DNA of 35,603 nucleotides from a virus (IMGVR_UViG_3300034524_000062:1-35603); one strand, 5' to 3'. Counted from the first letter of the stretch, positions 15 to 19,188 are shown. The notes: a model not told the origin generated them from the sequence alone. Made by a program: numbers and translations.

Positions 15-86
15 TGTTGCTTCTCACGCTTGATGCGAAAAAATCTCACGCAACATGAGAATGCATAAATCGATGCATAAAACTTG
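15..86. repeat. Phage end (Mu attR-like), transposase-binding repeats
   Basis: The end starts TGTTGCTTCTCACGC and continues to GATGCGAAAAAA, resembling the Mu left end (TGTATTGATTCACTTGAAG then ACGAAAAAA). TCTCACGC occurs at 22-29 and again at 44-51. This exact 22-bp offset fits two abutting MuA-type sites such as R1 and R2 of Mu. A degenerate third half-site (TCGATGCATAAAA, compare TTGATGCGAAAAA at 30-42) lies at 70-82. The subterminal words AATGCATAAAT (60-70) and TAAAACTTG (78-86) recur inverted near the other end. Confidence 0.75.
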
Positions 87-90
87 TTGA

Positions 91-125
91 GGAGAGGGGT
101 TGCCTATGGGTAAGGCCCCCTCTCC
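91..125 (-). terminator. Hairpin after the late operon, possible terminator
   Basis: GGAGAGGGG (91-99) pairs with CCCCTCTCC (117-125), and an inner GCCT/AGGC stem (102-105 with 113-116) extends it. It lies downstream of the last late gene. On the minus strand only a short TTTT follows, some nine bases later, so it is not a textbook intrinsic terminator. Confidence 0.4.
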
Positions 126-136
126 TGCCACTTCAT

Positions 137-159
137 AGGCGGCCCCAAGCCGCCTTTTA
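137..159 (+). terminator. GC-rich hairpin with short T-run
   Basis: AGGCGGC (137-143) pairs with GCCGCCT (149-155) around a five-base loop, followed by TTT on the plus strand. It could stop host transcription entering the phage, or act with the neighbouring hairpin as a bidirectional terminator. Confidence 0.4.
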
Positions 160-165
160 GCTGCT

Positions 166-202
166 GTTAACGCGGTGACATAAGGCGTTAATTGGGCGTT
201 AA
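166..202. repeat. CGTTAA motif cluster, attR side
   Basis: GTTAAC at 166-171 is followed by CGTTAA at 186 and 197, spaced 11 bp. The same motif is clustered near the genome centre (20495-20542) and near the other end (35004-35415). The last two copies overlap the end of the holin gene. Confidence 0.6.
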
Positions 203-550
203 TGCCTTAGCCCATTGCTCCCCAAATTTATCCTTAAAAGCGCGTAGAGCAGCCTCTATTAGACCCTTCATTTCATCCGCCGTCATGTCAATACCCAGTT
301 CTTGAGCGCGTTCAGCCAGCCATTCGGCCGCCTTTTGGTATTTTTCTTCGCCATGAAGATCGCGGTAAACCTGCTCTACGAACTGAACGGCCTTGGCGGC
401 CAGTTCTTGCTTAATAGCTAATTCGACTTCGATCTTCTTTAATCCTTCAACACCCAAGCGCTTGCGGAGCCACGCCACGGCATAGCCCGCAACTACGGTA
501 GCCAGGAACACCAGCAGATCAGCAGCTACTTTTTGTACTAGTTCCTCCAT
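188..550 (-). CDS. Phage holin, LLH family
   Basis: This 120-aa protein resembles LLH-family phage holins, which permeabilise the cytoplasmic membrane so that the endolysin can reach the wall. It has one hydrophobic segment near the N terminus (about residues 8-28, LLVFLATVVAGYAVAWL) followed by a long charged, amphipathic helical tail. The start codon at 548-550 lies one base beyond the stop codon of the upstream amidase gene, so the two are probably translationally coupled. It is the last gene of the late operon. Family membership is judged from architecture and position, without a database search. Confidence 0.8.
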   Translation of the reverse strand: MEELVQKVAADLLVFLATVVAGYAVAWLRKRLGVEGLKKIEVELAIKQELAAKAVQFVEQVYRDLHGEEKYQKAAEWLAERAQELGIDMTADEMKGLIEAALRAFKDKFGEQWAKALTPN

Positions 551-551
551 C

Positions 552-1355
552 TCACGCCGCCCCCTTAATCATTTTCTGGACCTCACCCAAAATATAGGCA
601 ATAGCCCGATCCAAAATGACGGCCGCTTCTGCCCTGGTGATTGGTGCATCCGGTGCAAAGGTACCATCTTCTCGGCCTCGGACGATACCAATTTGGGCCA
701 GGTGCTCAATGTTGCCCTGCGCCCAGTGACCTGCTATATCCTTAAACATACCCACCGCCACCTCCTTGATTTTTACACCGAAATATATCATGATGGCCCG
801 AGCAATACCACGGGCTTGCTTCTGAAGGAAACTATCGTCGAAAAGTAGAGCCGCGTCCTCCGGGTTGGTGAGGAAGCCGCGCTCCAATATTGCCGCCGAC
901 ATATCCGTCTCGCGAATTACTGCATAATAGTCTACTCCTGGATGATTCTGGCTCTCTCGGGTCCATACGCCCCGGTCTCCCCTGGGGAAAGGTTGCCGGC
1001 CCGTAGCCAGCGTTACCTGGTCTACCAGCAACCGCGCCAGCTTGTTGCCGCCCTTGCCAGGTTGCGAATGGATACTATGGATGGCATGGTGTCCCTTGGC
1101 GCTCGGCCCGCCGGCGGCGTCGGCGTGGAGGCTTACAAAAACATCGGCTCCCCAGCGGTTGGCCATCCGGCACCGTTCGGAGAGGCTGACGTCCCGGTCG
1201 TCTCGCCTGGTCAGCATGACCTCAATTCCGCTGCCCCTCAATTCCTGTTCAACCATCAGGGCCACACGCAGGTTCGTATCTTTTTCCATTCGACCATCGG
1301 CGGTCAGCGCCCCGGTGTCACCACCGCCGTGGCCAGGGTCAATACAAGCTCTCAT
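552..1355 (-). CDS. Endolysin: N-acetylmuramoyl-L-alanine amidase with SLH-like C terminus
   Basis: This is an Amidase_3-family zinc hydrolase that cleaves the lactyl-peptide bond of peptidoglycan at lysis. The expected ligands and catalytic residues are visible: His in DPGHGG, Glu in RMEKDTN, His in SLHADA and Glu in ILERGFLTN. A C-terminal segment (MFKDIAGHWAQGNIEHL, then GTFAPDAPITRAEAAVIL) is typical of one S-layer-homology repeat and probably anchors the enzyme to wall polymers. The start chosen is the ATG at 1353-1355, which follows GAGGTGG by five bases. The longer frame to 1400 would overlap the upstream gene. Product about 267 aa, with no signal peptide, consistent with holin-dependent release. 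Confidence 0.9.
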   Translation of the reverse strand: MRACIDPGHGGGDTGALTADGRMEKDTNLRVALMVEQELRGSGIEVMLTRRDDRDVSLSERCRMANRWGADVFVSLHADAAGGPSAKGHHAIHSIHSQPGKGGNKLARLLVDQVTLATGRQPFPRGDRGVWTRESQNHPGVDYYAVIRETDMSAAILERGFLTNPEDAALLFDDSFLQKQARGIARAIMIYFGVKIKEVAVGMFKDIAGHWAQGNIEHLAQIGIVRGREDGTFAPDAPITRAEAAVILDRAIAYILGEVQKMIKGAA

Positions 1356-1368
1356 CCAAACCACCTCA

Positions 1369-1749
1369 CTAAATTGTTGGTTTATTAGAGACAGGTTCAC
1401 TTACCTGTTCTTCTTCGCTCCCCTCGTCTCTTGGGATATAGGCCGGCTGTGGCGGAGGCGTATAACCATATCCGTCATAAGGGTACGGTGGCTGATATGG
1501 CGAAGCCTGACCCCGCCGTCCAAGTGTAGGCCAGCCGATCCGCTCAATGGCCCTTTTTGCGATAGCTGCAATAATTGGGTACCCAAGAACAGTGAAAAAA
1601 TCTACTTGGTTTGAAGAAATATCCTTTACCACTGCCATCTTGGCTCCCACGAACACATAAAGCCCCAGAGCCGTTAAAACAGCCAGGTCCTCTATTGTGA
1701 AACCGTCAGGGTCATTCCAAAAGCCCTTGATCTTCATCCTCGTTACCAC
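1369..1749 (-). CDS. Small membrane protein of unknown function, lysis region
   Basis: I do not recognise a family for this 126-aa protein. It has a hydrophobic segment at about residues 21-42 (TIEDLAVLTALGLYVFVGAK), a second weaker one at about 53-65 (FFTVLGYPIIAAIAK), and a Pro/Tyr-rich, probably disordered C terminus (PYQPPYPYDGYGYTPPPQP). It could be an accessory holin or spanin-like factor because it directly precedes the amidase gene, but that is inference. The first codon is GTG at 1747-1749; an in-frame ATG at 1737 is also possible. Its 5' end overlaps the reverse transcriptase gene by 38 bases. Confidence 0.6.
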   Translation of the reverse strand: MVTRMKIKGFWNDPDGFTIEDLAVLTALGLYVFVGAKMAVVKDISSNQVDFFTVLGYPIIAAIAKRAIERIGWPTLGRRGQASPYQPPYPYDGYGYTPPPQPAYIPRDEGSEEEQVSEPVSNKPTI

Positions 1750-2788
1750 CGCCCCTCACAAAGGAAACTGCGTCAAAGAGCTTCCGCCTGAAGCGGTAAC
1801 TGTCAGCGTGCTTAGCATGGCCTAGCCAACTCTGGACCGTGGCGTTAATTCGATCAAAGCCAATCTTTCCCTGGCTGTATAGCTTTTGGAAGTGCCGCAA
1901 GACTCGCTTAATCCGTTTGGTGCTCCTTTTCCGCAACAGTCTATGGTCCGGCCAGATACGGTACCCCAAAAAGTCCACCCCATGAGAGATGGGGAAAATC
2001 CCTGTCTTACCGTTTAGGTGTAAGCCCAGCTTGTCGTCCAGGAAAGTTTCGACCTCTCTTTTTATCTGCCACAATTCGGCCTTGTTACCGCCGATGATTA
2101 CGAAATCGTCCATGTACCGGACGTAGAACTTGACCCGAAGAACCTCTTTGATAAAGTGATCAAGCTGATCAAGGTAGACGTTAGCCCAGAGCTGGCTAGT
2201 CAGGTTGCCTATGGGTAGCCCCCTCGGGTCAGGGTCGTTCGTATCTACCCAACTAGAGAGAATTTCTTGGATCAGCCACAAGGTATCTTCGCAGGCAATG
2301 GTCCGCCTGATAATTGTCAGCAGTGTGTTGTGCCGGACAGAGGGGAAATACTGGCTGATGTCGCACTTTAGGCAATAAGGCTTTGGCCATAACCTGGTAG
2401 CCCGCCTGAGAAATTCCGTTACCCGGTCCGCGCCAGCGTGGGTTCCCTTGCCTTTCCGGCAGGCATAGCTGTCATAGATAAACTTGCGCTCAAAAAGCGG
2501 CTCAATGATGTTGCATAAGGCGTGTTGCAGTACCCGGTCTCGAAAAGGAAGAGCAGCCACCAGCCTGGTTTTAGGGTCGTTGACGTAGAACCGCCGATAA
2601 GAGCTTGTTTTATAAGTCTTCCAGATTAGTTCATTCTGTAACTGGATCAGCTCGCTTTCCAGATTGTTGGTGAAGATGAGGACTTCCGGCTGGTACCTGT
2701 GGCCCCGCCTCGCTTTGAGATAGGCCTCATACAGGTTTTGAAAATCATACACTTGTGGGTATAGGTTCTTATAAGTCCTCATCTTCAT
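1712..2788 (-). CDS. DGR reverse transcriptase
   Basis: This group-II-intron-like reverse transcriptase is the catalytic core of a diversity-generating retroelement. It copies the TR RNA into cDNA with errors at adenines. Visible motifs are the motif A aspartate in CLKCDISQYFPS (about D143), the DGR-type GLPIGNLTSQ motif (about 190-199) and the catalytic YMDD (225-228), followed by GVDFLGYRIWP in the thumb/motif E region. The length (358 aa) is normal for DGR enzymes, and there is no maturase or endonuclease domain. Two ATGs exist: the first abuts GGGAGG, while the one at 2780-2782 lies six bases from it and is the likelier start. It is downstream of the TR and overlaps the next gene. Confidence 0.95.
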   Translation of the reverse strand: MKMRTYKNLYPQVYDFQNLYEAYLKARRGHRYQPEVLIFTNNLESELIQLQNELIWKTYKTSSYRRFYVNDPKTRLVAALPFRDRVLQHALCNIIEPLFERKFIYDSYACRKGKGTHAGADRVTEFLRRATRLWPKPYCLKCDISQYFPSVRHNTLLTIIRRTIACEDTLWLIQEILSSWVDTNDPDPRGLPIGNLTSQLWANVYLDQLDHFIKEVLRVKFYVRYMDDFVIIGGNKAELWQIKREVETFLDDKLGLHLNGKTGIFPISHGVDFLGYRIWPDHRLLRKRSTKRIKRVLRHFQKLYSQGKIGFDRINATVQSWLGHAKHADSYRFRRKLFDAVSFVRGGGNEDEDQGLLE

Positions 2789-2951
2789 CCTCCCAACCTG
2801 GGCCTGGCTCCGGCTTTCGTTTCCTACTGGCCGGGACAGGCGTTTTTTATTTTTTGCCGGCCAAAACCTGGCGCGACAAGGACCGGGGCTCCTTTGCCTG
2901 TGCCCTGGATAGCCGCCCGTAAGCAGCTACCTTCTCGCTTGTTTCAGGCAG
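2783..2951 (-). ncRNA. TR-RNA downstream spacer between TR and reverse transcriptase
   Basis: In characterised DGRs the functional template RNA extends past the TR into the spacer before the RT gene, and that part is needed to prime cDNA. Here about 160 bases separate TR and RT. They contain an inverted repeat (GGCCGG at 2829-2834 with CCGGCC at 2857-2862) whose loop is A-rich in the RNA. The role is inferred from other DGRs. Confidence 0.5.
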
Positions 2952-3070
2952 AGCGGCGCGGAAGCCGATGTTGATGTTCACGTTCGACGGCAGGTTGTTC
3001 AGGTTGAGGGCGAACCCAGCGCGGGCGTTCGACCCATTGTTCCAGTTCCCGCCCCGGAGAGCCGCGCGTT
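2952..3070 (-). repeat. DGR template repeat (TR)
   Basis: This 119-bp segment matches the VR at 3513-3631. The only differences are at eight positions (2971, 2975, 2978, 2983, 2999, 3004, 3041, 3047), all T on the plus strand and so all adenine in the TR RNA. Read in the VR frame the template has nine AAC and one AAT codon (for example GGNWNNGSN and NNLPSNVNINIG), the usual design in which adenine changes never produce stop codons. It sits between avd and the RT gene. The 3' boundary in the sense direction is at 2951/3512, where a non-adenine difference begins. Confidence 0.97.
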
Positions 3071-3082
3071 TCAGCCCAGGCC

Positions 3083-3427
3083 CTAATTCTTAGCCTTAAT
3101 AGAACGTATCCACCCGCCAATCATGCGGCCCAATTCGTCCAGTAAGACCGACCAATGTTCAAACTCTTTAACGGTGATCACTCGGTTCTCCACTGCTACC
3201 AGGATAAGGGTTCTGAGAGTGTCCAGCTCAATGTCCATGTCCTCCAGGGTTGTTTTCTTGTAATACCGTTTGCCGCACCGGATAATGAGCTGGAGCAGTC
3301 GGGTCATAGAGTTCCGAATGTCGGTTCCCAATGTATAACGATAATCCTTTGGAATATCTCTGATGGCCTGGTAGCCATACTTCATCATGTCCTTACACTT
3401 TTCTTTTAGGATCAATTCTTGAGCCAT
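3083..3427 (-). CDS. avd: DGR accessory variability determinant (Avd)
   Basis: This 114-aa protein resembles Avd, the four-helix-bundle protein related to the 23S rRNA intervening-sequence protein family. Avd forms a positively charged pentamer, binds the TR RNA and RT, and is required for mutagenic homing. The sequence is helical throughout, rich in Lys and Arg, with the typical pattern ILKEKCKDMMKYGYQAIRD near the N terminus and LLDELGRMIGGWIRSIK at the C terminus. It lies between the target gene hairpin and the TR, the classic position. The stop codon is 12 bases from the start of the TR. Confidence 0.9.
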   Translation of the reverse strand: MAQELILKEKCKDMMKYGYQAIRDIPKDYRYTLGTDIRNSMTRLLQLIIRCGKRYYKKTTLEDMDIELDTLRTLILVAVENRVITVKEFEHWSVLLDELGRMIGGWIRSIKAKN

Positions 3428-3451
3428 CGCTTGACCTCAAAGGATTGCTCC

Positions 3452-3473
3452 AGGCCCCGCTATCGCGGGGCCT
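3452..3473 (-). repeat. DGR target hairpin/cruciform with GATA tetraloop
   Basis: AGGCCCCGC (3452-3460) pairs perfectly with GCGGGGCCT (3465-3473). On the target gene's sense strand the four-base loop reads GATA. Hairpins with GRNA tetraloops just downstream of VR are known to promote DGR target recognition, and GATA fits that consensus. It lies about 40 bp past the VR end. No T-run follows on either strand, so it is not a usual terminator. Confidence 0.8.
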
Positions 3474-3500
3474 TCAGAGCTTCAGTTTTCAGGGTTCAGA

Positions 3501-5045
3501 TCACAAAGACAAAGCGGCGCGGAAGCCGATGCTGACGTACACGCTCGACGGCAGGTTGTCCAGGGTGAGGGCGAACCCAGCGCGGGCGTTCGACCCATTG
3601 TACCAGTACCCGCCCCGGAGAGCCGCGCGTTGTTTATAGTTGCGCAACCAGAAACCATCTTTCCACTCTTCGCTTCCACCGGAAGATACGGTGGCCGGCA
3701 GCGCCAGGGCGGCGAGCTCGGCTTCCGTCCGCATAGCAACGAATTTCCCAAATTGGTAAGCGGCGTAATCACCTGTGGAAGAAGCAAGATCATTGGTCAT
3801 TTGGGGTGAAATCCTTGCAATACCGATACCCTGGGCATGAGCTGCTATGGCGGAGCCGTTTGCTCCGCGGTTCGCGGTGATGCTTGTCCCATTAACGGCC
3901 GTGATGGTGAGTTGTTCGTTTTCGCACTGCAGAACATCTCCTGCCGCTGGGCCGGAGCTTCCAGGACCCAGAACCAGGTCAGAAATGGTAAAGGTGGCCG
4001 GGTTGGTGGTATTGTTAAGGCCAGCATCGGCAATTTTGGCCGTCCAACCGCCCGGAATCACGCAGTAGTCGGTGATCTGCTGCACCACGGCGCCGTTCGA
4101 GTGGGCGCTGGCGGCTGTCCCCTTCTGGCCGCGCTGGCAGCCGGTCAGGGTATACGTGCCGTTGCCGTTGTTTACCATGGAGCTGTAGATCACGTACTCG
4201 TCGGTGTTTGTGCCCTCGGCTTTGATCAGGATCAGACCGTTGCTGGCTGGCCAGAGCTCGGGGTTCTCCACGTTGCCGATCACTATGGCTGTGTCGGTCG
4301 CGGTAATGCCGTCCGGATCGCTTATGGCCGCGGACTTTATGGCCTGGTACCTCCCGCAGTCAATGAGGAAGTCCACCCACTCCCAGAGGTTGCCCACGAT
4401 ATCGAAGACGCCATTGGCCATGCCGTTGTGCGACCAGGAAATAGGCCCCGAGCCAGTAAGGCAGCGCGAGTACTGTTTGTTAGGCGAGTATTGCTGGGTA
4501 TAGCTTGCCACCACCGGATCTGCTATCCCATAGTACTCCCAAGAGTCGGGGTCGCGGTAATCTCGACCCCAGTTGTTGTTGCCCCGGATGTCGTGCCCAA
4601 GAAGTTTGATTAGGAAGCATATAGTGGCCCATTCTTTCATGGTCACGAGGTGGCAGGACCGGCCGTTTATCTTGCGGTTAGCGCAGGCGATCTTCGCATT
4701 GTCCCAGTTTATGTCGGTCCAGGGGACGACACCCTGCTGGGACACCGCCGCCACCTGGCCGGGGCTGTTCGCCGAGGTGCTGCCACGGCTGCTGTTGGTG
4801 GCATCAGGCTGGCTGCAGGGGTACTTGTCTATCAGAAAACCGCCGAGTTTAAGGTCCTGGGGCGGGAAGGCCCCGTTGTCCCATAGGCCAGCGGGAATGC
4901 GGAACTTAGGTATATAAATCATCTTGGATACCATCATTATGCCAGTCCCGTCGGCTTTGGAGTTGTGGACTACGTCCACCTCGCGGGTGCCGGCAGCTAT
5001 CCGGTCCCGCAGGGCAGCCAGGGACAATTTGCTAACATTTGCCAT
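3501..5045 (-). CDS. DGR variable target protein, C-type-lectin (FGE-like) fold, probable receptor-binding tip
   Basis: This 514-aa protein is the diversified DGR product, probably displayed on the tail fibre to bind the host receptor. Residues about 38-235 look like a formylglycine-generating-enzyme/sulfatase-modifying-type lectin domain (PWTDINWDNAKIACANR, then HLVTMKEWATI, then GNLWEWVDF). The domain closes with the C-terminal ALRGGYWYNGSNARAGFAL...GFRAAL segment, which contains the VR. Between them, about 236-415, is an insertion with two related segments (RGQKGTAASAHSNG at 305 and RGANGSAIAAHAQG at 393), a motif style common in phage fibres. It starts directly after the stop of the upstream fibre gene. 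Receptor binding is inferred from position and from other phage DGRs. Confidence 0.93.
   Translation of the reverse strand: MANVSKLSLAALRDRIAAGTREVDVVHNSKADGTGIMMVSKMIYIPKFRIPAGLWDNGAFPPQDLKLGGFLIDKYPCSQPDATNSSRGSTSANSPGQVAAVSQQGVVPWTDINWDNAKIACANRKINGRSCHLVTMKEWATICFLIKLLGHDIRGNNNWGRDYRDPDSWEYYGIADPVVASYTQQYSPNKQYSRCLTGSGPISWSHNGMANGVFDIVGNLWEWVDFLIDCGRYQAIKSAAISDPDGITATDTAIVIGNVENPELWPASNGLILIKAEGTNTDEYVIYSSMVNNGNGTYTLTGCQRGQKGTAASAHSNGAVVQQITDYCVIPGGWTAKIADAGLNNTTNPATFTISDLVLGPGSSGPAAGDVLQCENEQLTITAVNGTSITANRGANGSAIAAHAQGIGIARISPQMTNDLASSTGDYAAYQFGKFVAMRTEAELAALALPATVSSGGSEEWKDGFWLRNYKQRAALRGGYWYNGSNARAGFALTLDNLPSSVYVSIGFRAALSL
3513..3631 (-). repeat. DGR variable repeat (VR)
   Basis: This is the 119-bp counterpart of the TR, forming the 3' end of the target gene (residues about 473-512). 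Substitutions relative to TR, in sense orientation, are four A to G, three A to T and one A to C. They change Asn to Tyr at 480, 482 and 503, Asn to Thr 494, Asn to Asp 496, Asn to Ser 501 and 505, and Ile to Val 504. The GC-rich 3' part (GGCTTCCGCGCCGC) is unchanged and is the likely initiation-of-mutagenic-homing site. Confidence 0.97.
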
Positions 5046-5414
5046 TTACTCCACCTCCGGTAAGGGGAATACAGTAATCTGGACATCATTCAGGTCCAGC
5101 GGGCGCTCCACCATCTCCATAATGGGCTGCCCATTCTCATCGGTCATTCCGGTAGGCCGGCTATCAAACTGCCGCTCCGGCAGAACGGCTTCCGCCAGGA
5201 GCCAGTAATGGTCCCGGAAAAGCTCGGTGCTTAAGCTGCCATCCTCTTCCAAATAAAGTCTGAAGGGGCCGCCCTGAAATGGTGTCAGGTCTATAGTCCC
5301 GCCAGTACACTGACCGCCTGGAAAGCGGAAAGCCGCCACCACCAGGCGATTGGGGAGAGCCTGGCCGATGGATACAACTTCATTAGGTTTGTTAGGGTCG
5401 CGTTGAACTATCAT
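5046..5414 (-). CDS. Tail-fibre-region protein, unknown function
   Basis: I cannot assign this 122-aa protein to a family. It is acidic and probably beta-rich (FRFPGGQCTGGTIDLTPF, then GPFRLYLEEDGSLSTELF). An ATG preceded by AAGGAGG with seven-base spacing supports the start. It lies between the collar-like fibre gene and the DGR target gene, and its stop codon directly abuts the target start. It may be a fibre connector or a chaperone for the variable protein, as small proteins often precede receptor-binding genes; this is inference. Confidence 0.7.
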   Translation of the reverse strand: MIVQRDPNKPNEVVSIGQALPNRLVVAAFRFPGGQCTGGTIDLTPFQGGPFRLYLEEDGSLSTELFRDHYWLLAEAVLPERQFDSRPTGMTDENGQPIMEMVERPLDLNDVQITVFPLPEVE

Positions 5415-5426
5415 CTTTCTGCCTCC

Positions 5427-5864
5427 TTACGTCATGAGCTGGTACCGGAAGCTGCCGGTGAACCCGCCTGTATTGTAAACGGTGAAGGCGTTGCTGGCTT
5501 TGGAAATGAACACGTCCCCCAGGTCTCCACCGGTATCCTGAATGGGTACCACGTTGACGATGTAATTGGTGTGACCCAAGGAATGGCTTACGGTTCTGCC
5601 GCTGGTACCGGCGAATGTGCTTTCTCCCTGCAAAGTCTGGGTTTCCAGGGCATCCAGGCGGGCATCAAGGCTGCCGAAACCTCCCCTGGCCGCCTCGATC
5701 TCGGTTTTTAGGGCGTCCTGTTGCTGCTTCAGGTAGGCCGTCCGGTTTGCAAGCTGCTTATTTGGCAGGTTGTCAATGCCATTGGGGCCTCCCTGCACCG
5801 GGTCGGTTTCCTCAATTTGATAGATCCCCGGTTCCCATTGCGCTACTTCTGGCAAGTTGGCCAT
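5427..5864 (-). CDS. Tail fibre protein
   Basis: This 145-aa protein has the N-terminal pattern of phage tail fibre proteins: WEPGIYQIEETDPVQGG followed by NGIDNLPNKQLANRTAYLK, which usually joins the fibre to the baseplate. A short coiled-coil-like stretch follows (about residues 43-77), then a glycine/threonine-rich beta domain (TFAGTSGRTVSHSLGHTNY). It is much shorter than a full fibre, so the distal tip may be supplied by the downstream 122-aa protein and the DGR target. GGAGGTGA precedes the ATG. Confidence 0.75.
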   Translation of the reverse strand: MANLPEVAQWEPGIYQIEETDPVQGGPNGIDNLPNKQLANRTAYLKQQQDALKTEIEAARGGFGSLDARLDALETQTLQGESTFAGTSGRTVSHSLGHTNYIVNVVPIQDTGGDLGDVFISKASNAFTVYNTGGFTGSFRYQLMT

Positions 5865-5882
5865 GCTATCACCTCCGCATGA

Positions 5883-6335
5883 TTACGTGTAAAGTGTCCA
5901 CTCGCCGTCAATCTCAATGTCGCTGTCTTTCTCGATCACCTTGCCGCCTCGCGTTCTCCGGGCATACAGGCTGCCGTCGGACCGCAAAAGCCCGAATTCC
6001 CGAATGGCCAGCCCGTTGGCGTCGCTGCTCAGGATTTGGAAGGTGCACACCACCACCATGGGTGATGGCCGGGTAACCTGCAGCAGCGGCTTCGTGAAGG
6101 CGTTGGTGATCGCCTGGTCCTGGCCTGTTGGCGCGGTGCCGTTGGTCCCGACGGCCACATGGGTAATTGGGAGAATAGCCACCTGGACGCCGGCCAGGTT
6201 GCTGGCTATGTCCGCCCTCGGGCCGTCCATCACCAGGTTGTCGTCATCGTCAATTTCCACAACCCGCCCGCGCCTACGGATTACCAGGCGCAGCCTTCCA
6301 GCCAGGCCGTGTCTCTCCGCCAGTTCTAACTTCAA
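5883..6335 (-). CDS. Phage tail protein, fibre-proximal
   Basis: A 150-aa protein of the baseplate/fibre junction. Segments such as ILPITHVAVGTNGTAPTGQD and IREFGLLRSDGSLYARRT are like those in small tail proteins that lie between the gp48-type protein and the fibre in Mu-like and related prophages. No catalytic motif is visible. The start is TTG at 6333-6335 behind TTAGGAGGTGATAAC. The function is probably structural; the exact role is not known from the sequence. Confidence 0.65.
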   Translation of the reverse strand: MKLELAERHGLAGRLRLVIRRRGRVVEIDDDDNLVMDGPRADIASNLAGVQVAILPITHVAVGTNGTAPTGQDQAITNAFTKPLLQVTRPSPMVVVCTFQILSSDANGLAIREFGLLRSDGSLYARRTRGGKVIEKDSDIEIDGEWTLYT

Positions 6336-6346
6336 GTTATCACCTC

Positions 6347-7432
6347 CTAAGCCGCGTCAACTTCTACGGGCAGCCCTTTGCGCCGGACCACCAGGTGCAG
6401 GCCATCATTTAGTCCGTTGGCCCCGTAGGTGATACTCCCGTTCCGGGGCGTACCGGACCCGTACCTGACCAGTCCTCCATGCACCAGTTCTTTATCGCCG
6501 TAATGAGCCACGCCGTCGCGATACCTTAACGCCCCGTCGTGGCGGGCCTGCCCGTTATGATGCCAAAACCCCATCCGCAGCAGGCTGCCGGAGTGCCGGT
6601 GCCTGGGGCCACCGCCGTCATGTTTATAAGCCACCCGATGGTCCCGGTGGCCGGGAATAACCTCCGGTCCTATCTCTAAGGCTGTTGTCATTTCAGGAAT
6701 GCCGTCCCGCAGCCGGCCGGACTGGTAGAACGCCCTGCCGTCGTGCCTTATCCCATAAGGCGCTGCCCCGGTGTGCCGCAGGATCGGGCCGGCGGTGCCG
6801 TCTTCGGCACTATAGCTTGCTACAATCGCCTGTTGCTCTTTTAGCGCCAGGCGGTCGGTAAGAGCAAGCTCTAAGGCCAGAGCGGCTAGCATAGAGTGGG
6901 AGGCCTTAACCTTCTTGATGGCGGCCAGCAGCGCCTGGCGCTCGGCGGCAGCGTAGTCCTTACCGTCCTCGATCCCCATGAAAATCTTGAACTCCGCCCA
7001 CCGGACGCCGCCCTGGTGCCTAGCTGCTCCGTTGTAAAGGTTCTGACCGTTGTGTAAGGGAACCACAACGCCATCCTTGAACAATTCATGGATGCGCGCG
7101 TTCGGGTAGCCCATCACCTTTAGCACTTCCACCAGGCCGGGATTGGTGCCCCCCAAAGCATAGGTCTGGTAGGCGGCTTTCAGGCGCTGGCGGTAGGAAT
7201 CGTCGCTTTCCCCCGGCAACCTGGGGATACCCCTGTCAGTACCATGTAGGTCAAGGGCCTGGCCCGTGGCTGTGTCCAAAAGCCACGCCCGGCGCACCTT
7301 GAAGATGGCCTGCTTCAATTCGTCAAGGCTTACTCCCAGGGCCTCGGCCCAGCGCTCAATATCTGTTTTTGTTCCGTCCCGCCGCCGCAAGAACCCAGGC
7401 AGCAGGCTCAGGATGTACTCTCCGAATTTCAT
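6347..7432 (-). CDS. Baseplate protein, Mu gp48/P2 I-like
   Basis: The 361-aa product follows the baseplate J gene and has the N-terminal signature of Mu gp48/YmfQ-type and P2 gpI-type proteins: an LPGFLRRRDGTKTDIERWAEAL start, then RGIPRLPGESDDSYRQRLKAA. These complete the baseplate rim that carries fibres. The C-terminal half is unusual, rich in His and Gly, with repeated short motifs such as RHDGRAFY, KHDGGGPRHRHSG, RHDGALRYRDG and RYGSGTPRNGS. That half looks like a repetitive beta structure and may act as a fibre-like extension. The stop codon of the J gene directly adjoins its start. Confidence 0.8.
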   Translation of the reverse strand: MKFGEYILSLLPGFLRRRDGTKTDIERWAEALGVSLDELKQAIFKVRRAWLLDTATGQALDLHGTDRGIPRLPGESDDSYRQRLKAAYQTYALGGTNPGLVEVLKVMGYPNARIHELFKDGVVVPLHNGQNLYNGAARHQGGVRWAEFKIFMGIEDGKDYAAAERQALLAAIKKVKASHSMLAALALELALTDRLALKEQQAIVASYSAEDGTAGPILRHTGAAPYGIRHDGRAFYQSGRLRDGIPEMTTALEIGPEVIPGHRDHRVAYKHDGGGPRHRHSGSLLRMGFWHHNGQARHDGALRYRDGVAHYGDKELVHGGLVRYGSGTPRNGSITYGANGLNDGLHLVVRRKGLPVEVDAA

Positions 7433-8575
7433 TTACGCCAGCCTCTCTACCGTAATGGTCAGGGTGCCTAACACGGTTAGCTCGTCTGGCTGCACAATAA
7501 CGTCGCTTGTCGGGCTGGAGATGATCGCGTTCACCGCATCGGGCACGGCCATTAACAGCGCCGTCAGCCTGGCCAGGTAAAGGCTCTCGCCGATCCGCCG
7601 TTGGGCGATACCGGCTACCTGGCCGATACCGAAGTACGCCTGGATGGCCTGCTCGCCGGCGGCTCGGGCGGCCGCTTCGTCCCCTTTGTCGTTAGGCAGG
7701 TAAATGGTAGTCGCCACGTCAACCGTCCGGATTCTCGGCCCCTTCACCAGCACGTTGGCCACATTGGGCCGCCGCTGGTCAATGTAGTCCTGGACCTGCT
7801 GGATCAGCTCCCCAGATGGCGCACCCTCCGGGCCGGTAATAATGACGTCCACCGTGCCCTGGCCGCGCGGGAACTGGCTGTTCACCGCCACATCCACCAC
7901 GCCGGCCACCGACTTGGCCCAGGAGATATATGACGCATCAGTGCCCCCCAGGGCCAGCTCGTTCCAGCGCAGGAAGTAGCGCTGGCGCAACTCCTCGTCG
8001 CTTTCGGTGTCCGTCCCTTCCTCAGTGATCCAATTGGCCCCGTTAGTTAACTCGTCAACGCCGGGGATGTAAGTCTCCAGCACGGTGATGTATCCTTCCC
8101 CGACGTTGTACTTCTCTCCAGGAAACTCCGCTTCGACTGGCACGCTGCCCTGGGCCTGCCCGGCCGGCAGCACCACGTCGGAGGTAACGAAATATCTCAG
8201 GCTCTCACCGTCAGGACCCGGTTCCGTTTTTACCACCGTGCCGGCCGGAATGAGCAGGGGAGAGGAAGCGTCCTTCCTGGTTACCGTCACCATGCCCTTG
8301 GTTTTTTTTGCCTCACGCCTGGTGAGCCCCACATCCTGGGCCTTGAGGTCCAGCCACTGCCCGGTGGCATAGGCGGCGAAACCCTGGGGAACAACTTTTT
8401 CCAGCAGGTCGTACTGTTCCGCCACCGGGGCAAGACTGCTTTCTGCCAGGGTTCTAAGCACTCCGCCGGGGTTCAGGTTGGTAACCTTGCCACCGGCGGC
8501 CCGGAAGCGGTCAAAGAACTCCTTAAGCAATGTTTCTAGGCTCTTCAAGCCAAGTAGCTGTCGAAAGTCAACCAT
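7433..8575 (-). CDS. Baseplate J family protein (Mu gp47-like)
   Basis: This 380-aa protein is a clear member of the baseplate J/gp47 family, which forms the wedge of contractile-tail baseplates. Typical features are the N-terminal ATGQWLDLKAQDVGLTRREA, a central PVEAEFPGEKYNVGEGYIT and EEGTDTESDEELRQRYFLRW, and a C-terminal ferredoxin-like region (TVDVIITGPEGAPSGELIQQ, then DYIDQRRP). Length matches the family. Its start overlaps the stop of the gp46-like gene by one base, so the genes are coupled. Confidence 0.92.
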   Translation of the reverse strand: MVDFRQLLGLKSLETLLKEFFDRFRAAGGKVTNLNPGGVLRTLAESSLAPVAEQYDLLEKVVPQGFAAYATGQWLDLKAQDVGLTRREAKKTKGMVTVTRKDASSPLLIPAGTVVKTEPGPDGESLRYFVTSDVVLPAGQAQGSVPVEAEFPGEKYNVGEGYITVLETYIPGVDELTNGANWITEEGTDTESDEELRQRYFLRWNELALGGTDASYISWAKSVAGVVDVAVNSQFPRGQGTVDVIITGPEGAPSGELIQQVQDYIDQRRPNVANVLVKGPRIRTVDVATTIYLPNDKGDEAAARAAGEQAIQAYFGIGQVAGIAQRRIGESLYLARLTALLMAVPDAVNAIISSPTSDVIVQPDELTVLGTLTITVERLA

Positions 8576-8988
8576 CAGATCACCTCAATCCGTATCTCCC
8601 CGCCGGAAAGGTCGATGACTAGGTTCAAAGGGTTTGTTTCCCCTATAATTCTGCATGTTGCCCTGATGCTGATATGGTCGCGCTCCCAGCTTAAAACTTC
8701 GGCCGCTGCGGTTCCGGCCTCCACCCGTGGGTCTCTCTCCAGAGCTTCCTGGACGGCCTGTTGCAGGTCCAGCCTGTTCAGCGGATCATTGGCAGCGTGG
8801 ATAAACCGCACCAGGTCAGCACCCCATCCTGGGTGCAGGAAAAGGGCATCCGCCGGCGACATTAACTTGTGCTTAATGTCCTGGGCCACGCAGGCCTTGC
8901 CTGTCACAAGCTGGATGTCGCCCGTTGGGTTGGTCACAAAGTCGCCATCTTCAATGCGGATGTCTGTGCCCAGCGCTTCATCCATCAT
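8575..8988 (-). CDS. Baseplate wedge protein, Mu gp46/gp25-like
   Basis: A 137-aa protein between the spike-like and J-like genes, the position of Mu gp46 and of gp25/W-type wedge proteins. The sequence GDFVTNPTGDIQLVTGKACV, then DIKHKLMSPADALFLHPGWG and ALERDPRVEAGTA, fits that small family, which nucleates sheath assembly on the baseplate. It overlaps the upstream gene by four bases. No enzymatic residues are expected or seen. Confidence 0.85.
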   Translation of the reverse strand: MMDEALGTDIRIEDGDFVTNPTGDIQLVTGKACVAQDIKHKLMSPADALFLHPGWGADLVRFIHAANDPLNRLDLQQAVQEALERDPRVEAGTAAAEVLSWERDHISIRATCRIIGETNPLNLVIDLSGGEIRIEVI

Positions 8989-9278
8989 TTCAACACCTCG
9001 TCAATGTAAGGCTGGCTGGGGTCGGCATAGTAGAAACCAATTCGCACCTGGTCCCCTGTTTGTACCGTCTGGTTCCCTGGTACCCGTAACTTAGCCAGCA
9101 CTGGCCAGGACGAAAGGGCATTACCTGAGCTGTCCAGCACCCGGACGTCGGCCTGCCGGCCCTCATTGTAGGTTTTAATGACCTTGCCCTTCACGGGGTA
9201 AAGCGCTCCGTTTAGCACCGGAAACACCTGCCCTACCAGGGCCTTAAGCACTTTCTCTATTTCTTCCCTCGTGACCAT
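8985..9278 (-). CDS. Baseplate spike-region protein (gp45-like position)
   Basis: A 97-aa protein with an N-terminal helix (TREEIEKVLKALVGQVF) and an OB-fold-like beta segment (GKVIKTYNEGRQADVRVLD, then TVQTGDQVRIGFYYADPSQP). This resembles the small OB-domain proteins that replace Mu gp45 or XkdR-type spike genes in Firmicute phages. It is shorter than Mu gp45, lacking a long beta-helix tip. It overlaps both neighbours (hub upstream, gp46-like downstream). Confidence 0.65.
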   Translation of the reverse strand: MVTREEIEKVLKALVGQVFPVLNGALYPVKGKVIKTYNEGRQADVRVLDSSGNALSSWPVLAKLRVPGNQTVQTGDQVRIGFYYADPSQPYIDEVLK

Positions 9279-10048
9279 TCCAGGGTCAACCTCGCTTTCT
9301 GGGCATCGTGGTGGTAGTGGCAGCGCTCAACCCGCGCCTCCACCGGTTCCGCGAAGTGTCGGGGATCCACGATGATGATCCGGTGAGAGTGTCTGATCCA
9401 GGGCATGGCAAAGGTGGTGATCAGGCCACGCTCGCCGTCGTTCTCGACCCGCGTGGGTTCCAGGATATTGACGCCATATTCCAGCCTGGTAAGCTCGGTC
9501 TGCTCGTACCTGGGCGATTCCTCCCAAGGCCCCCAGTAGAACTCACCCTCCGGCTCGAAGTAATAGGCCCAGTCCAGGCCCCAGGTCATGTTCACCCGCT
9601 TGAAAACTTCCAGGCAGTTGCCGCTGGCCACAAAGGACGGCCTGGGCGGCAGCGCTTTGCTGCTTAACCGGTAGGCGGTCACTCCGGCCTTCTGCAGGCC
9701 CTGCTGGATAATTGCCCTGGGCTGGACCTGGATAAAGGTCTGAGAGAACTCGGTCCGCTTTAGCTTGACCCCCTGGTCCTGGGCGAATACCACCGTGGTG
9801 GTGGACCTGGGTTCCAGCCTTGCGATTTCCCCGTCGAATATAAGCCACAATCCCTTTTCCCGGTAGCCCTGGCTGATGCGTACCCTGTCCCCGGCGGCGA
9901 TATCGGCGGGCAGGCCGGCCTTCGGCAGCTCAATCTCGGCCAGATCAATAGGGGCCTGACGGGAAGACACGACGTCAAACCTTGTCATTTTCTGCACCGT
10001 ATAAGGTCCAATCTCAATATCCCAGGCCGGGGAGATATACTCGCTCAT
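9257..10048 (-). CDS. Baseplate hub protein, gpD/gp44-like
   Basis: The 263-aa protein lies between the LysM protein and the spike-like gene, like gp44/gp27-type hub proteins (phage late control D superfamily, XkdQ in Firmicutes). Visible features are an N-terminal beta-barrel segment (EIELPKAGLPADIAAGDRV, then ISQGYREKGLWLIFDGEIARL) and the family-like LQKAGVTAYRLSSKALPPR. It forms the hub to which the tail tube and spike attach. The gene is slightly short for the family. Confidence 0.75.
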   Translation of the reverse strand: MSEYISPAWDIEIGPYTVQKMTRFDVVSSRQAPIDLAEIELPKAGLPADIAAGDRVRISQGYREKGLWLIFDGEIARLEPRSTTTVVFAQDQGVKLKRTEFSQTFIQVQPRAIIQQGLQKAGVTAYRLSSKALPPRPSFVASGNCLEVFKRVNMTWGLDWAYYFEPEGEFYWGPWEESPRYEQTELTRLEYGVNILEPTRVENDGERGLITTFAMPWIRHSHRIIIVDPRHFAEPVEARVERCHYHHDAQKARLTLEWSRGKK

Positions 10049-10060
10049 CCAGCGCCACCT

Positions 10061-10732
10061 CTACACCACGTCGTCGTCTACCGCAGGACTGCTCCCGGCG
10101 GCCACCGCTTGCTTCTTGGCAGGTATGTTAATCCGCTGCCCTGGGTAGATTAGATTGGGATTCTCGATTTGCGGGTTGGCCTTGACCAGATCGGCCAGGG
10201 AAATTCCGTAGGTCCTGGCGATGCCCCACATGGTGTCGCCCTTCTTAACCACGTACTGCCCATCAGCCGGCTGGGCCGTGGTGGCCTTCTTGGTGGCGAT
10301 CTGCTCGGTCTTGACCACCACGGGTTTGAACTCCAACAGGCTAATCTCGGCCGTTATGGTGTCGTCCCCGTTGCCTTCCGTGGTCCGTAGCCCCTGGTAA
10401 ACCACCTGGCTGATGCCCCTGGCTGCAGCGTGCTTGTTTACTATACGGTACACATAGGGTTTGGCTTGGCTGTCCACCTTCTTGAAGCTGCGCTCCAGCT
10501 CCGCCACCTTGCTGTAGCAGTTGCTCTCCTCGTCCGTCGGGAGGGCAATCCTGACGGTTATTTTGGCGTCCTCGTACCCCTGGGGCTGCTTGGAGGAGCC
10601 GGACTGGCCGGGTACCTCCTCCATGTCTACCCGCACATTGCACTCAATCTCTATCTGTTGGATGACCCCCGGCAGCACCTGCTCGCCCAGCTTCACCTGC
10701 CCGAAGTCGTCAGTAATAATCTCTCTTGCCAT
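10061..10732 (-). CDS. Tail hub protein with C-terminal LysM domain
   Basis: This 223-aa protein has an N-terminal tail domain (about 1-135) and a C-terminal LysM peptidoglycan-binding domain (about 160-204: YVVKKGDTMWGIARTYGIS, then NLIYPGQRINIP). Such XkdP-like proteins sit between tape measure and hub genes in Firmicute myophages and bring the tail tip into contact with the wall. A flexible Thr/Ala/Lys linker joins the two parts. It starts immediately at the end of the tape measure gene, with coordinates overlapping by one base. Confidence 0.85.
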   Translation of the reverse strand: MAREIITDDFGQVKLGEQVLPGVIQQIEIECNVRVDMEEVPGQSGSSKQPQGYEDAKITVRIALPTDEESNCYSKVAELERSFKKVDSQAKPYVYRIVNKHAAARGISQVVYQGLRTTEGNGDDTITAEISLLEFKPVVVKTEQIATKKATTAQPADGQYVVKKGDTMWGIARTYGISLADLVKANPQIENPNLIYPGQRINIPAKKQAVAAGSSPAVDDDVV

Positions 10733-13107
10733 CAGCCGCTCACTTCCTCAGCAAAGCGTCGCAACGCCTGCCACAGGTCTTCGGGGCTGTCCACCCTGTC
10801 CACGTGCAGGTGCACGTCACCATTTATGGTTACTGGCCTTGGGCCGGCAGCCCTGACCGTCGCCGGCCTTGTGGCCGCCGGGAAAAGCCCGGAGAGATCC
10901 GGCACGTCGGCCGTAATAACATCAGCAACCCTCGGCACGGCAGCCGGCGGGGTTGAGGGAAAGGAAGGCAGGGGAGAGGCCAGAGCTAACCCGGCCAGGC
11001 CGGCGGCTACCGCCTTCCTTAGCCCTTCCATTTTCTTCTCCACGCCGCTCTGGAAGGTCGTTACCATGGCTTCACCGCTCCTGGTGAGGGTGGAAAGGGG
11101 TCCGGTCTTGGCGTCGGAAAAAGGTAGCATCTCCCTGATCTTGGCCAGGCCGCTTTTCACCACTTCCACCGGCTTGCTGATGACCGACTTGAGGCCCTCT
11201 GTGAATGCCTCCCAGAGCGCCCGGCCGGATTGCTGGAACGTACCCCAGAGCCCGTTCAGCCAGGCCAGCGCCTTGTCTATGCCGCCCTTGATTACCAGCC
11301 AAAAGTTGTTTGCCAGGTTGCCGACGAAGGCTACCCCGGCGCCGACAGCTCCTTTGATGGTCTCCCAGGCGCTGATCACCGCCACCTTGACGGTGTCCCA
11401 GTGCCTGATTAAGAGCACAATAACCGCAATAAGTCCGATGATTGCCAACACCACCCAGGTAATGGGGTTGGCCAGCAGGGCGGCCGTAAAACTCCATACG
11501 CTGGCAATGAGTCCCGGCAACGCCCGAATGGCCGTAAAGAGGGCCTGCTTGCCGAGGTTGAATAACGCTGTCCCCATCGCCCTGGCAGCCTCCAGGGCCT
11601 TGCCCCCGGCCACCAGTGCGAACCTGCCGGCGCTTACAGCGGCCTGCCCCAAATTCTTGCCCATGGAGACTACCCAGCGGCCCGCAGCCATGGCCGCCCG
11701 GCCGCCGGCCTCAAAGCCCGTCCGCATGCCGGAGCCTATCTTTCTGATTGCATCCAGGATGGCCTTGTCGGTCAGCTTGCCCTTCAGCCAGGCAATTCCC
11801 CTGCCGGCCATGGTAACCCCCTGGAGGGCGTAACCGCCCATGATGATAAATGCGCCGGCTACTGTCAAAATGGGGGCTAAGATGGCTAGCGCCCCCGCGC
11901 CTACAGCGGCAAGCACCACAGCGGTTTTCACCAAGTCCGGACGCGCCTGGGCAAACTGGCTCAACTGCCTCAGTATATCTTTGATTACTGGCGTGACCTG
12001 TCCCAGGACCGGAACAAGATACTTGGCGATGTCTTCTTTGAAGTTGGCAATATTCTGCTGCAGAAGTTCAAGCTGGGCGGCCGGGCCGGTATTCATGGCC
12101 GACGCCATCTGTTCGATAAAGCTAGTGCCCTGTTTCATAGCCCCTCCAAGGCTTTCCGTACTCTTCCGTAGGTCGCCCACCTTGTTGTAGAAAAGGTCAA
12201 TAACGGCAACAGCCTCCTGGGTACCGAAAGCCTTTTGAATTTCCTGTTTCTCCATGGCGTCCAGCGTTTCCCCATATTTCTGGCGCAGCCTGTCGATGAT
12301 GTCAGCAATTCCAAGAAGCTGTTTCTGGTTGTCAACGAAGGTCAGGCCCAGTTTCTCCCCGGCACTGGCCGCCGATTGAATAAAGGCTCTGTATTTGGTT
12401 CCTGCCTCGCCGCCCGTCATGGTGGCCTGCAGCATGCCCAGGACAGCTAACTGCTCTTCCAGCGGCCGCTTGGCGGTGGTGGCCGTCGCCCCCAAAGTGC
12501 TGATGGCCTGGGCCATGCCGGAACCTGTCGTCTTAAATGCCTGCACGCTGGCGGCTATACCGGCACTGAACATCTGGGCAAATTCGGCGTCGCTCATTTT
12601 GTCGTACATGTCCTTATAAATCCCGTAGCCAGTGGCCAGCAGCGAAGTCATTTCACCTACAGTTGCTTTGGTGGCTTTAGCTGTTAGGGCCGCCATCTTT
12701 GTAAAGTCACCCACTGCGGCGTCGGTCAGGCTGGATATGCCCGATTTGATATCGTAGGCCGCAGTAATAAACTGTGCTTTAGTAGTTCCTGCCCAGTTGT
12801 CGGTAAATTCTCGGGCTGCCCTATCAAGAGAGTCAAGGTCTTTAACACCTAAAGATGCCACTTCTCCCAATGCCCGCTGTGTTTCCATCAGCGGCTGCAT
12901 AAGATTGGACAGTATCCCCATCATCTTGTCTGCCGCGCCCTGGACCAGAGCGCCGGAAAGGGACATCCGCTGTCCAAACTCCACCATGCCCCTGGCGGCT
13001 TGCATGGTCTTTTCCAGGTTTGTGACCGCCTGGGCCATCTTGCGGGCCGGTCCGGTCAATTTGTCAATGGTCGTGACTATCACGCCCAGTTTGAACAGCG
13101 ATTCCAA
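10732..13107 (-). CDS. Tail tape measure protein
   Basis: At 791 aa this is the longest protein and lies between the tail chaperone and hub genes, as expected for the ruler that sets tail length and is ejected on infection. The N terminus has a TP901-type pattern (LTGPARKMAQAVTNLEKTMQ, then RALGEVASLGVKDLDSLDRA). Two strongly hydrophobic stretches occur, at about 390-430 and 540-575 (WVVLAIIGLIAVIVLLI), likely to insert in the host membrane. The C terminus contains a VTINGDVHLHVDRVD motif seen in related tape measures. The length predicts a moderately long tail. Confidence 0.93.
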   Translation of the reverse strand: MESLFKLGVIVTTIDKLTGPARKMAQAVTNLEKTMQAARGMVEFGQRMSLSGALVQGAADKMMGILSNLMQPLMETQRALGEVASLGVKDLDSLDRAAREFTDNWAGTTKAQFITAAYDIKSGISSLTDAAVGDFTKMAALTAKATKATVGEMTSLLATGYGIYKDMYDKMSDAEFAQMFSAGIAASVQAFKTTGSGMAQAISTLGATATTAKRPLEEQLAVLGMLQATMTGGEAGTKYRAFIQSAASAGEKLGLTFVDNQKQLLGIADIIDRLRQKYGETLDAMEKQEIQKAFGTQEAVAVIDLFYNKVGDLRKSTESLGGAMKQGTSFIEQMASAMNTGPAAQLELLQQNIANFKEDIAKYLVPVLGQVTPVIKDILRQLSQFAQARPDLVKTAVVLAAVGAGALAILAPILTVAGAFIIMGGYALQGVTMAGRGIAWLKGKLTDKAILDAIRKIGSGMRTGFEAGGRAAMAAGRWVVSMGKNLGQAAVSAGRFALVAGGKALEAARAMGTALFNLGKQALFTAIRALPGLIASVWSFTAALLANPITWVVLAIIGLIAVIVLLIRHWDTVKVAVISAWETIKGAVGAGVAFVGNLANNFWLVIKGGIDKALAWLNGLWGTFQQSGRALWEAFTEGLKSVISKPVEVVKSGLAKIREMLPFSDAKTGPLSTLTRSGEAMVTTFQSGVEKKMEGLRKAVAAGLAGLALASPLPSFPSTPPAAVPRVADVITADVPDLSGLFPAATRPATVRAAGPRPVTINGDVHLHVDRVDSPEDLWQALRRFAEEVSG

Positions 13108-13110
13108 TCA

Positions 13111-13139
13111 TTGACACCCCCTCCGGCAAGGACTAAAAT
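13111..13139 (+). promoter_or_regulatory. Near-consensus sigma-A promoter for the plus-strand moron
   Basis: TTGACA (13111-13116) and TAAAAT (13134-13139) are separated by exactly 17 bases. They lie 21 bases upstream of the GTG of the 72-codon plus-strand gene, with AGAGGTGAG at 13147-13155 as the ribosome binding site. It points against the late operon and so could work in the lysogen. Confidence 0.8.
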
Positions 13140-13160
13140 TTAACTTAGAGGTGAGAAAAA

Positions 13161-13379
13161 GTGTATTTTGGGTTTCTCGGCACGTTCTTTTTCTTCTTCG
13201 GTATCGGGACCTTGCTGGCGCTAATCTGGGCAGCCATCCGGTTCGGCCCGCCGCTTTTGGCTTTGCTCCTAACGTCCATGGGCGAAGTCGCCGCCGCGTG
13301 GGGCAAGGCGTTCAAAGAAGGCTGGGACGAAGCCGGCCGGAAGCCTAGCGCCTCCGAAAAATCTCCCCGAGAGCCTTGA
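13161..13379 (+). CDS. Moron-like membrane protein, antisense to tail genes
   Basis: This 72-aa protein of unknown function is encoded on the strand opposite to the late operon, between the tape measure and tail chaperone genes. It has one or two hydrophobic segments (GFLGTFFFFFGIGTLLALIW, then PPLLALLLTSM) and a polar tail (AWGKAFKEGWDEAGRK). The GTG start follows AGAGGTGAG with five to six bases spacing, and a near-consensus promoter precedes it. Such autonomously transcribed single genes are called morons and often alter the lysogen, for example by superinfection exclusion; that role is inference. Its last 35 bases overlap, on the other strand, the frameshifted end of the chaperone. Confidence 0.75.
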   Translation: MYFGFLGTFFFFFGIGTLLALIWAAIRFGPPLLALLLTSMGEVAAAWGKAFKEGWDEAGRKPSASEKSPREP

Positions 13380-13883
13380 GCACCCCCAGCTTTACCAGCT
13401 CGGCTTCTCGCTCCTCCAGGAAATAGGCCTGGGCAGCTAACTCCACGTATTCCTCATCATTCAAGTCGGCTACTTCTTTGTCGGATAGCCCGAAGTGAAG
13501 GGAAATAAGCAGATCCGTCTGGCCCAGGCCGTCCTGCTTTAACGCCTCCAGTCGCCTTACAACCGCTTCACGAAAAAATCTTGATTGGTGCCTACGATCT
13601 TTTGCAGCTCGCTGCCCACAGAGATGGCCATGCCCGGCTTCTCCTCGAACAGCTTGCGCACCTCGTCCTGATCGGGGAAGAGAAGGCAGTCAAAAATCAG
13701 GTTGTGCATGGCCTTCAAGGCATCGCTCATGACCTGCTTGGCAAAACGGCTTAAGGCCGCCCGGCCCGGTTTCCTGAAGATGAAGTAATATGTTTGGGAA
13801 CCGTCTTCTGTTTCCCCCGTCAGCTCGTATACATCACCGTATTGGGACTTCCATGCCTGCACTTGCTCTTCGTTAGGTCTCAT
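13345..13883 (-). CDS. Tail assembly chaperone, -1 frameshifted long form
   Basis: The short chaperone frame contains the slippery heptamer T TTT TTC (plus coordinates 13572-13578) five codons before its stop. A -1 shift there leads into an open 75-codon frame (REAVVRRLEALKQDGLGQTD, then LISLHFGLSDKEVADL, ending EIFRRR) that stops at TAG 13345-13347. The long product would be about 179 aa. The second frame has no good start codon of its own. Frameshifted G/GT-type chaperone pairs directly upstream of the tape measure are conserved in long-tailed phages, including Mu, and load onto the tape measure. Confidence 0.82.
13557..13883 (-). CDS. Tail assembly chaperone, short form
   Basis: This 108-aa unshifted product (MRPNEEQVQAWKSQYGDVYE, then SQTYYFIFRKPGRAALSRF) corresponds to the G-type tail chaperone. 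It lies between tube and tape measure genes, where that protein is always found in contractile and flexible tails. It would be produced in excess over the frameshifted long form and is absent from the mature virion. The call depends mainly on position and the in-frame slippery site; the sequence is divergent from model chaperones. Confidence 0.8.
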   Translation of the reverse strand: MRPNEEQVQAWKSQYGDVYELTGETEDGSQTYYFIFRKPGRAALSRFAKQVMSDALKAMHNLIFDCLLFPDQDEVRKLFEEKPGMAISVGSELQKIVGTNQDFFVKRL

Positions 13884-13895
13884 AACTCACCCTCC

Positions 13896-14327
13896 TTAGC
13901 TCGGCCCCAGGCCGCCCCATTCAATGCCGTTCAGGATGATAAAACTCAGCTCCACGTTCACGCTGGTGTCCCCCTGGCTGATGCTGGTACTCGTTTCCGT
14001 GAACGTGACGCCCTTGATTCTGTCGGTCGTGATCGGCTCATCTTCATTGGCGTAGCTGACTGAAATGTTGAAAGGCGGCAACCGGTAAAGGCTGCGCTTC
14101 TGTGCCTTGGCGTAATCCACCAGGCGATTGAACTCCTCGCGCTTCAAAGTCAGCTTACCCTCGCCCTCGTAGTTGCCCACCCCGTAGCCGCGCGGGAGGG
14201 AGCCTCGTCCGTAGATGCCTTCTTTGTCTTGCTTGTCGCTGTACTCGATGCTTTCCACGTCCAGAAGAGGGCCGTGGGGCAGGTTGATGGTGATGTCCTC
14301 CCAGCCATAGCGCTTGCCGTTAATCAC
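13896..14327 (-). CDS. Tail tube protein
   Basis: The 143-aa protein follows the sheath gene and precedes the chaperone, the universal position of the tube protein of contractile tails (Mu gpM family). It is beta-rich with the characteristic pattern INGKRYGWEDITINLPHGP, then GEGKLTLKREEFNRLVDYA and SVNVELSFIILNGIEW. It polymerises as stacked hexamers around the tape measure to make the DNA channel. Length is typical. Confidence 0.85.
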   Translation of the reverse strand: MINGKRYGWEDITINLPHGPLLDVESIEYSDKQDKEGIYGRGSLPRGYGVGNYEGEGKLTLKREEFNRLVDYAKAQKRSLYRLPPFNISVSYANEDEPITTDRIKGVTFTETSTSISQGDTSVNVELSFIILNGIEWGGLGPS

Positions 14328-14340
14328 CCCGGTTCACCTC

Positions 14341-15741: not shown

Positions 15742-15745
15742 TCAA

Positions 15746-15964: not shown

Positions 15965-15966
15965 TG

Positions 15967-16976: not shown

Positions 16977-16977
16977 C

Positions 16978-19185: not shown

Positions 19186-19188
19186 CCG

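Follow-up and report, generated by a model that had tools for sequence, protein, structure and literature searches.

A complete diversity-generating retroelement in a Mu-like phage of Firmicutes and its comparison with described systems

The retroelement and its repeat pair

Several phages and prophages are known to carry diversity-generating retroelements (DGRs), and the one described here lies at positions 1712-5045, on the minus strand, of the virus record IMGVR_UViG_3300034524_000062, the whole of which (35,603 nt) is referred to as the window. In the Bordetella phage BPP-1, which is not transposable (an attachment site is annotated), the mtd gene with its variable repeat (VR) is followed by avd, the template repeat (TR) and the reverse transcriptase (RT) gene, and the spacer RNA belongs to family RF03022 (Phage_DGR). 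Going by its title, a paper of 2013 (Toussaint, Res Microbiol 164:281, cited in PMC5883640 and PMC4406082) dealt with the DGRs of Mu-like, transposable phages in Firmicutes, that is, with the combination found in the window. The Mu-like Faecalibacterium phage FP_Mushu (MG711460) has been reported to transpose and to bear an active DGR with variable VR reads (PMC5883640), and the DGR of the transposable hankyphage of Bacteroides diversifies a tail fibre, with activity detected (PMC12135933). The record of the Bacillus phage BalMu-1 (KP063903) annotates the RT alone among the DGR parts, and a Thermus aquaticus prophage DGR encodes the variable protein TaqVP (5vf4).

A first-pass annotation of the window had called it unusual for a Mu-like Firmicute phage to carry a full cassette, but this combination was not new, because it had been published in 2013 and occurs in Mushu and BalMu-1, with the hankyphage as a further transposable case. 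The window shared with BPP-1 the order of the parts and the type of hairpin, and its RT was 40% identical to Brt of that phage. BalMu-1 was alike in having transposases A and B and the succession baseplate, target, avd position, TR, RT, holin and amidase; 10 of its 11 TR/VR mismatches were located at A and its spacer RNA was also RT-14, whereas its RT was 47% identical and its target had 319 aa and lacked the beta insertion described below. Among the named Mu-like phages Mushu was the closest when MuA (28%) and the portal (53%) were compared; it had the same avd-TR-RT arrangement, but its target was Hoc-like and located downstream of the RT, and its spacer RNA was RT-9. The hankyphage, likened to the window by its published description, differed in its Bacteroidota host. 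TaqVP was homologous to the window target over its full length and had the FGE-type C-type-lectin fold, but it measured 385 aa and lacked the insertion of about 150 aa.

The DGR of the window was complete and all its open reading frames (ORFs) were intact. Its features, all on the minus strand and in window numbering, were the following, in the order target with terminal VR, hairpin, avd, TR, spacer RNA and RT.

3501..5045, minus strand: DGR target gene with the VR at its C-terminus, 514 aa, FGE-type C-type-lectin fold
3810..4376, minus strand: beta-domain insertion region of the target, about residues 224-412
3507..3631, minus strand: VR with the initiation of mutagenic homing (IMH) site at its 3' end, a 125-nt direct repeat of the TR and the 3'-terminal part of the target gene
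3453..3472, minus strand: GC-rich hairpin with an 8-bp stem and a GATA (GRNA) loop on the sense strand, 34 bp past the VR
3083..3427, minus strand: avd, accessory variability determinant, 114 aa (NF033474, PF22296, phrog_3206)
2946..3070, minus strand: TR with IMH* at its 3' end, from the repeat comparison with the VR
2802..2953, minus strand: TR-RT spacer RNA, structured, Rfam RT-14 (RF02921), overlapping the 3' end of the TR
1712..2788, minus strand: DGR RT, 358 aa, with motifs IGNLTSQ and YMDD (PDB match, phrog_1423, tree)

Every part named by the first-pass annotation was found, in the order it had given, with the RT, Avd and the target each backed by profiles or solved structures; what it had overlooked was the structured RNA between the TR and the RT. 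The position that it assigned to the DGR, between tail-fibre and lysis genes, also agreed with the tail-fibre genes located upstream and the holin and amidase genes located downstream.

The TR and the VR were 92% identical over 125 nt, with 10 mismatches. The eight that preceded the IMH all replaced a TR adenine by G, T or C, and by our own arithmetic the probability that eight mismatches fall by chance only on adenines, of which there were 24 in 119 positions, was about 1e-6. In the two others, at the 3' extremity where the IMH and the IMH* differ, a C was changed to a T: the TR of the window ended in GCTCTGCC and its VR in GCTTTGTC. In the relatives, all aligned TRs had the IMH* GCTCTGCC whereas the VRs had GCTTT, and the recurrence of this difference is as expected for an IMH* and an IMH. 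The A-specific bias was found again at nearly all of the related loci obtained from the RT searches (designated by L numbers). As DNA, the hairpin folded better than 200 of 200 shuffled sequences (z -4.8), and it was copied exactly in relatives L002, L003, L004, L007 and L054. Its stem, loop and spacing agreed with the published rules for the hairpins of phage DGRs, which have GC-rich stems of 7-10 bp, 4-nt GRNA loops and a spacing of 4-34 bp (PMC3240598). A search with the target protein for a further VR or a remote target in the metagenome-assembled genome (MAG) of the Clostridia host returned no sequence other than the target and the TR. The window very probably holds a BPP-1-type DGR, belonging to a temperate and Mu-like phage with a host among the Clostridia-type Firmicutes, and the DGR would diversify the lectin end of a tail-associated protein.

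The target protein and its beta insertion

The only strong relative of the target in the PDB was the Thermus aquaticus DGR variable protein 5vf4 (TaqVP; phmmer E 9e-17), and a profile of 24 target homologues matched the whole 5vf4 chain with an E of 5.5e-117. The top Foldseek matches of the target were also to 5vf4, and phrog_2889 (unknown function) was matched as well. Between elements of the lectin there was a beta-rich insertion of about 150 residues, which was specific to the lineage formed by the window, L002, L003, L005-L010 and L054 (L003 being counted on the length of its target alone). Targets with the insertion measured 498-520 aa, whereas those of the other relatives were shorter and had no insertion at that place of the alignment. 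The insertion matched Pfam Rcc01698_C above the cut-off and its model was all-beta (predicted local distance difference test, pLDDT, 80.7); Foldseek gave weak matches to viral and phage tail and fibre proteins, and no significant match was obtained when the structure of the insertion was compared with the PDB.

By analogy with BPP-1, and considering the position of the gene, it is reasonable to suppose that the target may be a receptor-binding module that retargets the host range. Several points weigh against this reading. The model of the whole target had only a modest confidence (pLDDT 65), so that the fold assignment rests on the homology with 5vf4; the target sequence matched only DGR variable proteins and phrog_2889, and no named receptor-binding protein; and the DGR target of a Mu-like phage need not bind a receptor, that of Mushu being a Hoc-like decoration protein (PMC5883640). 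It is possible, though unlikely in our opinion, that a genuine DGR diversifies here a protein of the virion surface, or a decoration protein as in Mushu, serving for loose attachment to an S-layer or a polysaccharide and not located at a receptor-binding tip. The target bore no recognised fibre N-terminus, it contained the beta insertion, and its tail assignment came from its position alone; however, its gene came directly after those of the baseplate, the P2-I-like protein and the tail fibre, which is also the place of mtd in BPP-1, and the match to phrog_5302 (tail protein) covered the VR end of the target. We retain the reading of the target as a presumably tail-associated, putative receptor-binding protein.

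Homing, reverse transcriptase and spacer RNA

Comparison with the relatives indicated how the VR has changed. The TRs of the window and L003 were identical over 70 nt while their VRs differed at 5 sites, all 5 of them TR adenines, and the 20 VR differences between the window and L054 comprised 14 at shared TR adenines, 6 where the TRs differed and none elsewhere. When six sequences were compared (15 pairs), VR differences at TR-conserved positions other than adenines were found at one position only, always involving L005; in the five relatives, VR differences at TR-conserved sites were located almost only at TR adenines. Each VR therefore followed its own TR save at adenines. Repeated homing leaves such a footprint, which indicates that the element has been homing recently. 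Judged from this evolutionary TR-to-VR footprint, the DGR is recently active. It would be improbable that the cassette is a relic in which the VR diversity among relatives is old and the DGR no longer works in this phage: L003 has lost the 3' half of its VR with the IMH and the RT motif of L008 is altered, but the ORFs of the window DGR are all intact, and a long-dead element would not keep nearly identical TRs together with VRs that differ at A sites and track their own TR elsewhere.

Some irregularities were observed in the repeats of related loci. The loss in L003 (L003:3325-3450) left a truncated target despite a TR identical to that of the window, and may be either a deletion or an assembly artefact. 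A tandem duplication of 557 bp in L053 (L053:8640-9868) gave the succession VR, identical second avd, second VR-like copy and TR, so that the VR-avd unit was doubled in this related DGR.

The best PDB match of the RT was 8ub7 (chain named Reverse transcriptase; E 7e-67), which we take to be the DGR RT of BPP-1, whereas the best group II RT had an E of 2e-23. The RT scored 497 bits against phrog_1423, and its motif IGNLTSQ, found where group II RTs have QGG..SP, fitted the pattern of the DGR clade, [IVL]GxxxSQ and YxDD. In a maximum-likelihood tree, which contained no retron RTs and in which several long branches made the order within the DGR side unsure, the four group II RTs stood apart, at a support of 100/100, from all the DGR RTs, that of the window included. 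An origin of the RT from a group II intron or a retron, with a coincidental repeat pair, has a negligible probability, because the group II maturase and retron profiles that appeared among its NCBIfam matches were far under their curated cut-offs (TIGR04416, 143 vs 300 bits; NF038233, 55 vs 235 bits), a DGR RT topped the PDB matches, its clade was separate from group II RTs, and the A-specific repeat pair and the placement of the RT already refute it. The RT of L008 (L008:10001-11038), of the same clade, had SGSRTSP where IGNLTSQ was expected, and its TR/VR mismatches were still A-biased. Avd passed the NCBIfam equivalog NF033474 (DivGenRetAVD) with 110 bits vs a cut-off of 80, and it also matched PF22296 (bAvd), phrog_3206 and, weakly in the PDB, Bbp7 (4dwl). 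The first-pass annotation had advised a search of the RT against DGR profiles with a phylogeny, and a comparison of VRs among related prophages; both gave results in its favour, since the RT matched phrog_1423 and fell outside the group II RTs with full support, and the VRs varied between relatives.

The TR-RT spacer scored 60.4 bits against RT-14, over a cut-off of 48.1, and RT-14 occupied the equivalent TR-RT position in the relatives and in BalMu-1. A consensus fold of eleven sequences kept 42 pairs, 15 of them with compensatory changes on both sides. The single-sequence minimum free energy of the spacer gave no signal (z 0.45), so the structure rests on the comparative evidence and on Rfam. 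In this group the DGR spacer RNA seems to be RT-14, and we found no literature calling RT-14 a DGR RNA. The spacer RNA of BPP-1 has an established role in loading and priming the RT-Avd complex, and by analogy this would be the most plausible role of RT-14. In L005 (L005:9330-9484) the spacer RNA consisted of a first hairpin of the L010 type (L010:9815-9973) and a 3' part of the window type, which suggests recombination within the DGR.

According to the mechanism that we propose from homology, the RT-Avd complex would bind a transcript of the TR and the RT-14 spacer RNA, and cDNA would be made with random bases opposite the TR adenines, adenine mutagenesis being expected of an RT of this kind. 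The cDNA would then replace the 3'-terminal VR of the target gene, steered by the IMH and the hairpin, leaving the copying footprint observed among the relatives. Surface residues at the C-type-lectin end of a protein presumably located in the tail would be rewritten in this way, and the binding to the host receptor would probably be altered.

The phage and the distribution of the module

Apart from the DGR, the following features were localised in the window.

15..35579: complete phage genome with TG...CA ends, between foreign flanks of 14 bp and 24 bp
30345-32180, minus strand: MuA-type transposase A (PF09299 and PF09039 above cut-off)
29321-30304, minus strand: MuB-type target-activator ATPase (AAA_22/TniB)
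5427-5864, minus strand: short tail-fibre gene (phrog_3100/4209, tail fibre N-terminus)
5046-5414, minus strand: gene for a 122-aa protein, upstream of the target
188..1749, minus strand: downstream lysis module with a 126-aa protein, an N-acetylmuramoyl-L-alanine amidase with an S-layer homology (SLH) domain, and a holin

The Mu gene set comprised transposase A, B ATPase, Gam, Gp27, Mu portal (Portal_Mu), gpF, protease I and gpT, and terminase, tape measure and baseplate J genes were also present. In the early region, near the MuA and MuB genes, there was a second AAA ATPase, IstB/DnaC-like (27323-28294, minus strand), and the amidase of the lysis module (552-1400, minus strand) was of the endolysin type, with its SLH domain at the C-terminus.

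The right end TGTTGCTTCTCAC, at window position 15, was common to four relatives (L003, L004, L006 and L054, with one base changed in L006), whose flanks differed from one another and from that of the window. L054, 94% identical, was a prophage within a contig of 63 kb from a Clostridia MAG. AGCAT preceded the left end TGTCATTTCTCAC of this prophage and was found again after its right end, as a 5-bp target duplication. Alignment with L054 placed the left end of the window phage at 35579, giving a phage of about 35.6 kb. Judged by its gene content and ends, the window is a Mu-like phage, complete or nearly complete, and lysogeny and replication by transposition would follow from MuA, MuB and these ends. 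Its own 14- and 24-bp flanks did not match each other, which is suggestive of the assembly of a packaged or multiply inserted phage. The Clostridia MAG that contained L054, and an RT relative of 89% on a contig of Desulfofundulus thermosubterraneus (DSM 16057 assembly), support a Firmicute host. The phage ends, the Mu proteins and the integrated relative with its 5-bp duplication agreed with the initial description, in which a Mu-like phage of Firmicutes carries a complete DGR.

The phage of L010 had a target of the same family as the window and a portal of the Mu type. Next to a ComM-like Mg-chelatase gene it encoded a large serine recombinase (L101:1-2656), and no match to a Mu transposase was found in its 40.7-kb contig. 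The tail/DGR module appears, then, to have been swapped between phages of differing integration modes, and the link between transposing and retargeting would be modular. What is somewhat new is the fibre-like beta insertion in a C-type-lectin target and the presence of the same tail/DGR module in a serine-recombinase phage. Whether the lectin of this lineage gained an internal fibre-like beta arm and, in addition, the tail/DGR module is passed on whole between MuA and serine-recombinase phages, as a diversification cassette independent of the mode of replication, is in our judgement evenly balanced.

The DGR of the window represents no new class of system. It is a well-bounded, intact example with natural replicates, namely TRs that are identical or nearly so beside VRs that differ, and an integrated copy whose ends are exact; this makes DGR activity testable in culture in phages of thermophilic or subsurface-type Firmicutes.

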